This document shows, piece after piece, positions 48,509-60,111 of a stretch of 64,000 nucleotides of DNA; the stretch's first letter is position 1; each line of letters starts with the position of its first letter. Under the pieces are notes generated by a model. It saw only the letters and a program-made list of their open reading frames with translations, was not told the DNA's origin and searched no databases. Source of the stretch: Dehalococcoidia bacterium (lineage in GTDB: Bacteria; Chloroflexota; Dehalococcoidia; Lucifugimonadales; Lucifugimonadaceae); the NCBI GenBank assembly GCA_026421215.1, contig JAPKBN010000006.1, positions 1 to 64,000 of the forward strand. The letters are read 5' to 3'. The position numbers and the translations under genes were made by a program.

Positions 48509-48862
48509 GGGGACGCGTGGTTTCGACAGAGAGGCATCCGCCAGACTGCAAGCCGAGGGTGCCAACTTCCTCGATAATCCGCTGGCGCAACATTAAACGG
48601 CGAGAAACAACTCGCTATGGCCGCCTAGAAACGGCCACGTAGCCACGATTCTTCCCCCGAGGGGACCGATGGCTGCGACGCTTACTTGGGGTGCTGTCCG
48701 CCTGACGCCGATTGGTGCGGACCTAAGATCATCGGCTGGCCGCTGAAGTAGCCTGACGGAGAGCGAGATCAGCGGCGAGACAATAAATCGCCGACTAAGC
48801 TTGTAGACGTCGAAGCGAAACCCTAGCTGGACGGGGAGTTCGACTCTCCCCCGTCTCCACCA
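48509..48862 (+). ncRNA. ssrA: transfer-messenger RNA (tmRNA)
   Basis: About 354 nt. The 5' end GGGGACG pairs with CGTCTCC before the terminal ACCA (48859-48862), one G-U pair included, giving the tRNA-like acceptor stem. It starts with the conserved GGGGACGCGTGGTTTCGACAG and ends with the T-arm GGGAGTTCGACTCTCCC followed by CGTCTCCACCA. The internal reading frame runs from GCA at 48587 to TAG at 48626-48628 and encodes ATLNGEKQLAMAA, a degradation tag ending in the expected small hydrophobic residues. The G/C-rich stretch between the tag and the 3' domain should hold the pseudoknots. It is encoded next to smpB. Confidence 0.97.
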
Positions 48863-59679: not shown

Positions 59680-59705
59680 AAAAAAACCCCGAATATCTTT
59701 CGGGG
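59680..59705 (-). terminator. intrinsic terminator after the 44-codon ORF
   Basis: On the minus strand, CCCCGAA, a 5-base loop and TTCGGGG form a perfect 7-bp stem followed by seven T (59686-59680). It lies 33 bp after the stop of the small gene and ends the cysteine-leader unit before the SDR genes. Confidence 0.88.
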
Positions 59706-59738
59706 AATCAATTCCATTGGTCGAACCGCGTGAGTCTC

Positions 59739-59873
59739 TTACGGCTCTATGCCTAGTCCTTCAATCGCATTGAGAAATCTATGGAACGCCGAGACGGTTC
59801 GCGTCCAACTCGAACGCAGAACTCCGGGACTTTCATCGATCTGTGGAGTTGGGATCTGTGTAGAGGTAGCCAT
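59739..59873 (-). CDS. 44-residue small protein behind a cysteine-leader attenuator
   Basis: ATG at 59873-59871, TAA at 59741-59739. GGAAG (59883-59879) lies 5 bp before the ATG, a good ribosome binding site. The protein starts MATSTQIPTPQIDESPG, a polar, Pro-rich, probably flexible part, and continues VLRSSWTRTVSAFHRFLNAI, a likely amphipathic helix with Trp, Phe and Arg, then EGLGIEP. It contains no Cys and no Met other than the start. I do not recognise the family. It is the only ORF between the leader terminator (59935-59967) and a second terminator (59680-59705), so it is the probable regulated product of the unit, unless the transcript itself is the product. Confidence 0.6.
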   Translation of the reverse strand: MATSTQIPTPQIDESPGVLRSSWTRTVSAFHRFLNAIEGLGIEP

Positions 59874-59934
59874 TTGTTCTTCCGCTGCTGTGTACAGGCG
59901 TCGGGTTCAACAGATCCCGGGAGCGGAAGCCAAT

Positions 59935-59967
59935 AAAAAAACCCCCGGGAACGAATGTCCGCAGGGG
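59935..59967 (-). terminator. leader terminator (attenuator) between the Cys leader and the 44-codon ORF
   Basis: On the minus strand CCCCTGCGGA (5' arm, from 59967), an ATTCG-containing loop and TTCCCGGGGG (3' arm) give a ~10-bp GC-rich stem with one mismatch and two G-T pairs, followed directly by seven T (59941-59935). Its 5' arm (CCCCTGCGG, 59967-59959) is exactly complementary to CCGCAGGGG at 60024-60016, inside the leader ORF just after the Cys codons, so an alternative 9-bp helix excludes the terminator. This is the classical mutually exclusive arrangement of an attenuator. Confidence 0.75.
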
Positions 59968-59996
59968 CCGCACAGAACGTTGTGGTTATCAACCAG

Positions 59997-60074
59997 CTAG
60001 CGCGCGATTGCTCCTCCCCTGCGGGTGGTACAACAACAAGGGCACATGGTTGCTAGTGATAAAAGGTGAGTCAT
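59997..60074 (-). CDS. 25-codon cysteine-rich leader peptide
   Basis: ATG at 60074, TAG at 59999-59997. The peptide is MTHLLSLATM followed by CPCCCTTRRGGAIAR. Four of five consecutive codons are Cys (TGC CCT TGT TGT TGT), a density not expected by chance. GAGG (60082-60079) lies 4 bp before the ATG, but the -10 hexamer ends only 9 bp before it, so the mRNA may start almost at the ATG (near-leaderless). The coding sequence just after the Cys codons contains CCGCAGGGG, the exact complement of the downstream terminator's 5' arm. The start at the internal ATG (60047) would give a 16-codon version. Polycysteine leader ORFs acting as cysteine-responsive attenuators are known from mycobacteria. Confidence 0.7.
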   Translation of the reverse strand: MTHLLSLATMCPCCCTTRRGGAIAR

Positions 60075-60083
60075 CGTGCCTCA

Positions 60084-60111
60084 ATTCTATTCGGAATGTC
60101 CGTGATTGCAA
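60084..60111 (-). promoter_or_regulatory. sigma70-like promoter of the cysteine-leader unit
   Basis: On the minus strand TTGCAA (60111-60106), a 16-bp spacer and TAGAAT (60089-60084). Transcription would be expected to begin around 60078-60076, two to four bases before the leader ATG at 60074. Confidence 0.6.

Follow-up and report, generated by a model that had tools for sequence, protein, structure and literature searches.

A unit on the minus strand of the window, by which we mean the whole 64,000-nucleotide stretch analyzed, is very probably a trp-type, ribosome-mediated attenuator of transcription with charged tRNA-Cys as its signal, as judged by comparison among related genomes, and it lies ahead of an ORF for a protein of 44 residues. 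The window belongs to a 2.37 Mb Chloroflexota/Dehalococcoidia assembly (G000). Transcription would start at the ATG of a cysteine-rich leader ORF or 1-3 nt ahead of it, as the spacing of the -10 box suggests. When Cys-tRNA is short, a ribosome would wait at the second or third regulatory Cys codon (Cys2 or Cys3) and open a protecting hairpin (1:2), so that CCGCAGGGG (segment 2) stays free; this would pair with CCCCTGCGG (segment 3) as the latter emerges (2:3), the terminator would be blocked, and RNA polymerase would continue into the 44-aa ORF. When Cys-tRNA is ample, the ribosome would move over CCGCAGGGG, CCCCTGCGG would pair with TCCCGGGGG (3:4), and transcription would stop at the T-run. 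We infer that the unit is transcribed, that ribosomes stall in its leader, and that readthrough induces the small protein in cysteine shortage.

Elements of the unit in the window

Upon re-reading the minus strand, we found the promoter, the leader, the 9-bp complementary pair, the terminators, and the 44-codon ORF exactly where the sequence-only reading had placed them (Table 1). We confirmed that this observed set of elements is real and beyond chance; with Cys at a local frequency of 0.7%, four or more Cys among five codons would occur with a probability of ∼1e-8 per position. The thermodynamic stability of the region by itself is ordinary (z = -0.61). The attenuator unit matches no family of Rfam 15.0, whose sole match above the gathering score in the window is a tmRNA gene (RF00023) at 48509-48862. 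A terminator follows the 44-aa ORF, and the unit would be monocistronic.

Table 1. Features of the attenuator unit, in window coordinates
Feature	Position	Strand	Details
Sigma-70-type promoter, TTGCAA-16-TAGAAT	60084..60111	minus	TTGCAA 60111-60106, 16 nt gap, TAGAAT 60089-60084
Leader ORF, 25 codons, MTHLLSLATMCPCCCTTRRGGAIAR	59997..60074	minus	ATG at 60074; read from sequence
Regulatory Cys codons in leader ORF	60044-60042 and 60038-60030	minus	
1:2 protector hairpin, Cys2-Cys4/Thr codons with GGGGAGGAGCAA	60004..60037	minus	predicted by folding
Segment 2, CCGCAGGGG	60016..60024	minus	antiterminator 5' half
Segment 3, CCCCTGCGG	59959..59967	minus	antiterminator 3' half and terminator 5' arm
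Terminator 3' arm, TCCCGGGGG	59950-59942	minus	T7 next, 59941-59935
3:4 intrinsic terminator (putative attenuator), CCCCTGCGGACATTCGTTCCCGGGGG + T7	59935..59967	minus	hairpin -16.5 kcal/mol
Hairpin CTTCCGCT...AGCGGAAG over the Shine-Dalgarno (SD) sequence of the 44-aa ORF	59879..59929	minus	complementary segments kept in 7 genomes
44-aa protein ORF, 44 codons, MATSTQIPTPQIDESPGVLRSSWTRTVSAFHRFLNAIEGLGIEP	59739..59873	minus	ATG at 59873; GGAAG 5 nt upstream
Closing terminator after the 44-aa ORF, CCCCGAA...TTCGGGG + T7	59680..59705	minus	sequence

Conservation within the genus

A search by DNA through 100 related genomes located the unit in seven of the eight members of the genus (G000, G001, G002, G003, G004, G005, and G007) and, at that level, in none of the others. 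The eighth genome, G006, is uninformative because its locus breaks off at a contig end, where only a fragment of the neighboring amidohydrolase gene is present. In all seven, the unit follows the same amidohydrolase gene, and the same SDR-type gene lies further along. The promoter boxes vary among TTGCAA, TTGAAA, and TTGCAT and among TAGAAT, TACAAT, and TATAAT, and the gap between the -10 box and the leader start codon is 9 nt throughout; with so short a gap, the leader mRNA would be leaderless or nearly so. The C-x-C-C-C motif of the leader is invariant and the codons upstream of it, with the N terminus, vary. The three adjacent Cys codons are TGT in each genome, followed by a constant T-R. 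Segment 2 invariably starts 5 nt past the last Cys codon, with the stop codon 16 nt beyond it. Segment 3 is identical in all seven genomes and segment 2 in six, with G001 having CCGTGGGGG instead, which introduces two compensating wobbles (U-G and G-U). The attenuator hairpin and a run of T6-T8 are also kept in every case. A hairpin and T-run resembling the closing terminator follow the 44-aa ORF in G002, G004, G005, and G007 as well, and are not evident in G003 and G001.

The sequence-only reading had staked itself on conservation of the Cys run and of the 9-bp pairing in relatives, and it came through, as both are kept in each of the seven loci that are assembled in the genus. Because the helices hardly vary inside the genus, covariation comes mainly from other genera. 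An exact-pattern search for leader homologues in 250 genomes of the order gave seven matches outside the genus, which we dismissed as chance since the reversed pattern, used as a control, matched no less often; relaxed searches found real, diverged leaders beyond the genus.

The same locus in other genera

A loose search with the leader of a sulfate gene matched two loci that likewise have this amidohydrolase gene upstream. The orthologous locus is present in 16 genomes of genus g12, four of g11, and one of g2, in the order amidohydrolase, Cys-rich leader, terminator, and an ORF of 34-40 aa; for G042 and G098, the contig covers only part of the neighborhood. Altogether, we counted 28 small-protein units in four genera, including that of the window, all with Cys-rich leaders. 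Examples are the leaders MSNALRTTTTNSSQQVCTCMCTCTPTGVPSLACCTC and MKEITPQTMCACTCSCQPAGGGASA and the small ORF product MINIFKIALSGIRKALDSAQGLGIEADSLAPARKHR. A g12-like unit sits at a contig end (L252, G098:C81:1-1756) of G098, a genome placed in another family; this copy is perhaps a binning error, or otherwise a transfer.

The sequence-only reading had proposed looking for compensatory changes in the two helices, and these we found. Beyond the wobble pairs of G001, the antiterminator is built from different complementary letters in g12, g11, and g2. In g12, the pairs are ACAGGGGUUC/GAACCCCUGU (A-U), GCAGGGGUUC/GAACCCCUGU (G-U), and GCAGGGGCUU/AAGCCCCUGC (G-C); in g11, they are CGCAGAGGGU/ACCCUCUGCG and CGCAGGGGGC/GCCCUCUGCG; and another family has CCUGAAGGG/CCCUUCAGG. 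A mutually exclusive antiterminator is therefore kept by compensatory change across the seven genomes of the genus, g12, g11, g2, and another family. When we compared leader-to-terminator complementarity with 500 dinucleotide shuffles per leader, p was <0.05 in 32 of 41 units and <0.01 in 22, values that are not independent since the units are related, which makes the test only indicative. Within the seven genus genomes, the complementarity of segment 3 to the leader exceeded shuffles at p 0.002-0.046.

Folding and switch geometry

Three alternative helices can form in all seven sequences. The 1:2 helix, pairing the Cys2-Cys4/Thr codons with GGGG.GG.GCAA, is predicted at -10 to -18 kcal/mol in each and is perfect in G001 (5 bp + 5 bp); the 2:3 helix has -28 to -36 kcal/mol and the 3:4 terminator helix -16 to -19 kcal/mol. 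We followed their competition with virtual-ribosome folding, in which the A-site was moved along the leader and only the RNA downstream of the ribosome was folded. With segment 3 just emerged, the probability of 2:3 was near 1 for an A-site at or before Cys2, ∼0.9 at Cys3, ∼0.5 at Cys4, and zero past the Thr codons. In this folding 2:3 is made with the A-site as far as Cys3 and is lost from Cys4 on, a polarity that predicts an ON state under shortage of Cys-tRNA.

Once the whole terminator had emerged, 2:3 was most probable at Cys2 in G003, G004, and G005; in G001 the peak lay at Cys3, while in G002, the value at Cys2 (0.61) tied with a position beside the start (0.62). G000 and G007 showed at most a trace of 2:3 at the Cys codons, so the switch in these two genomes would have to be kinetic. 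In G000, 2:3 also reached probabilities of up to 0.31 at ribosome positions well ahead of the Cys codons. Once all the RNA is out, equilibrium folding favors the terminator at most ribosome positions, and 2:3 is a clear winner only cotranscriptionally, above all in G000 and G007. In the folding model, a ribosome at the Cys codons leaves segment 2 unpaired and available and one beyond them covers it, in G000 and G007 only until the terminator's 3' arm has emerged.

The folding also bears on translational attenuation in the mycobacterial style, in which the Cys tract would pair near the next SD, a stalled ribosome would expose that SD, and the terminator would be secondary; we consider this unlikely. 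It could draw on RNAalifold, which in its fold of the seven sequences joins UGUUGUUGUACC to GGUACACAGCAG beside the SD, on the conserved helix in which the SD sits, and on the near-leaderless leader, a trait shared with mycobacteria (PMC4633059, PMC9031893). However, several genomes break the long-range pairing between Cys tract and SD, and none of its base pairs has changed on both sides; the predicted access to the SD is independent of ribosome position; and in g12, g11, and g2 the homologous units retain both the 2:3 pair and the terminator. No SD-covering helix was seen in those three genera, and the helix apparently belongs to the window genus alone. Since this local helix covers the SD of the 44-aa ORF at every ribosome position, we grade translational control as possible, with the helix as a conceivable second, translational layer beside the predicted transcription attenuator. 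Three candidate pairings were set aside: the long-range one from RNAalifold, which no compensatory change maintains, and both an SD-sequestering switch and an alternative helix between the terminator arm and CTCCCGGG, whose folding is independent of ribosome position.

Cysteine-rich leaders before sulfur genes

The cysH gene (PAPS reductase), too, has a Cys-cluster leader and a terminator ahead of it in G001-G005 of the genus and in G009, G010, G014, and G061. The genus would thereby carry a second cysteine attenuator, at cysH. In an automatic test of 2:3 pairing, the cysH leaders of the genus were weak (p 0.046-0.65), with the terminator of G002 mis-assigned. At the cysH-cysD loci of the genus (L154, L155, L157, L158, and L159), the Cys-rich leaders (e.g., NCACACCGTPEGEPA) and terminators lie upstream of the PAPS reductase gene. 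No match to the PAPS-reductase family came from G000 and G007, in contrast to the other five members of the genus that were searched, and both keep the small-protein unit; a cysE model had no match over cut-off in the three genus genomes G000, G002, and G005. G000 and G007 possibly depend on reduced sulfur.

Elsewhere in the order, in different genera and families, Cys-rich leaders followed by terminators stand before transporter genes: a PHO4-type permease followed by cysH in G088 (L011:1477-1690), a TauE/SafE transporter in G133 (L116:170-330) and in G067 (L146, where the hairpin has no T-run), and a YeeE/YedE-type sulfur transporter in G153 (L140). In G030 (L009:1407-1560, G030:C10), a gene for a 1-Cys-type peroxiredoxin is preceded by the leader MKFYLTQTCCCCCCQNDNGVTSRV, in which six Cys codons stand in a row, with TACAAT 9 nt before the leader's ATG, a CGGGGU/ACCCCG antiterminator, and a terminator; we read this leader unit as a putative cysteine attenuator on the peroxiredoxin gene. 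The 9-nt spacing from -10 box to start codon is found before several cysH leaders, too. This recurrence of Cys-rich leaders and terminators before sulfur genes is the strongest argument that the window leader reads cysteine, and it provides strong, independent comparative evidence for cysteine sensing. The attenuator reading is thus borne out comparatively by the Cys run, the pairing, its compensated versions, and the leaders before cysH and sulfur-transport genes.

An arrest peptide would account for the leader differently: the nascent chain C-x-C-C-C-T-T-R-R-G-G would itself stall the ribosome, perhaps through a metal (Zn) or redox state and not through lack of Cys-tRNA. TTRRGG and AR* are as conserved as the Cys run, and at a distance of 3-5 kb there are genes for a Fur-family regulator and of the ZnuA type. 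Yet the residues after the Cys codons overlie RNA segments that need conservation anyway, the leader peptides of other units share Cys richness alone (CCCCCC; CTCMCTCTPTG; NCACACCGTPEG), and the targets elsewhere are sulfur genes and not metal genes. We regard arrest of this kind as improbable beside a leader that reads Cys-tRNA.

The small protein and its family

The 44-aa protein has an amphipathic helix followed by GLGIE, and its predicted structure is a single helix at residues 16-39 (pLDDT 79.9). Between genomes, dN is ∼0.04-0.48 and dS ∼0.3 to above 2, dN being the smaller in every pair for which dS is defined, and the variable sites fall 21/18/40 on the three codon positions, a pattern indicating that the protein is under purifying selection. 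A unit that is constitutive or non-coding, with leader and 44-aa ORF as by-products of a structured small RNA, would explain the strong nucleotide conservation between the two ORFs; the low dN relative to dS, the third-position variation, the presence of protein homologues in genera whose RNA has diverged, and regulatory codons that are always Cys make that explanation highly improbable and favor a coding unit under attenuation.

The window protein has no match in Pfam, NCBIfam, PHROGs, or PDB; for the family as a whole, there is no PDB match, and single members give only isolated weak Pfam matches. A first profile (A1) found nothing beyond the genus. Profile A5, which we built after tracing the locus through the neighboring amidohydrolase gene, then reached other genera, and its alignment has in common S/T-x-x-R-R/K, an amphipathic helix, and G-L-x-x-E. 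Searched against 393 genomes of the class, A5 picked up nothing convincing beyond this family of genomes; its matches in other families of the class are subthreshold (E 3e-4 to 1e-2). These proteins of 34-44 residues appear to form a previously undescribed family. The sequence-only reading had made much of a "sulfur-poor" protein, but for a 44-mer, this is at chance level (no Cys, p 0.74; no internal Met, p 0.33) and lends the reading no weight, and the protein it called an orphan has homologues of 34-40 aa in three further genera.

Discussion

The trp, his, and leu leader attenuators of enterobacteria consist of 1:2, 2:3, and 3:4 hairpins with the regulatory codons in segment 1 and a U-run. 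The unit described here has the same predicted architecture, and it differs from them in that the amino acid would be cysteine and the target is a protein of ∼40 residues instead of a biosynthetic operon.

Mycobacteria provide a second comparison. Cys-run leaders without terminators were proposed as candidate regulators of cys operons in Mycobacterium (Seliverstov 2005, PMC1262725), and polycysteine leaderless ORFs of mycobacteria were found to be translated (Shell 2015, PMC4633059). They are cited as acting on translation (Canestrari 2020, doi 10.1111/mmi.14498, as cited in PMC9031893 and PMC13236596). Both systems have a leaderless or near-leaderless short Cys-run ORF before sulfur genes, and in both the sensor would be the speed of the ribosome at Cys codons. 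Whereas the mycobacterial systems are described as acting on translation and no conserved intrinsic terminator was found in them, the window unit has a conserved terminator and antiterminator, and whereas mycobacterial targets include cys operons, those described here also include a stand-alone small protein.

Closer in kind is the uORFC-8-2 motif, a Cys-codon attenuator with a terminator predicted before cysS in Rhodobacterales (PMC8632094). It has in common with our units tandem Cys codons, alternative stems, a 3' U-run, and a proposed Cys-tRNA-dependent attenuation of transcription. However, uORFC-8-2 has two Cys codons and occurs in Alphaproteobacteria, only before cysS, whereas the Chloroflexota leaders have 4-6 Cys codons and precede a small protein and sulfur-assimilation genes. 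In the literature we searched, amino-acid attenuation through leader peptides had not been reported before from Chloroflexota. The principle of Cys-codon attenuation was already known; as far as the literature searched goes, what is new is the phylum and the regulon, and most of all the target, a small protein.

Cysteine attenuators are few, and this one indicates that an attenuator can serve one single protein of ∼40 residues. The role of the small protein can thereby be sought under one clear condition, that of cysteine shortage. The protein may bind a partner protein or the membrane and so adjust sulfur metabolism or uptake when cysteine runs short, a suggestion we hold with considerable doubt. 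Since this kind of sensor is found repeatedly ahead of sulfur genes throughout an order of uncultured and mostly marine bacteria, it would be usable to predict cysteine-regulated genes from sequence alone. As a tentative but serious possibility, these uncultured Dehalococcoidia may have a cysteine "ribulon," with many transcription attenuators, their leaders Cys-rich and leaderless, on sulfate and sulfur uptake, PAPS reductase, a peroxiredoxin, and, at a conserved locus, amphipathic small proteins of the GLGIE family that would regulate the response to cysteine starvation.
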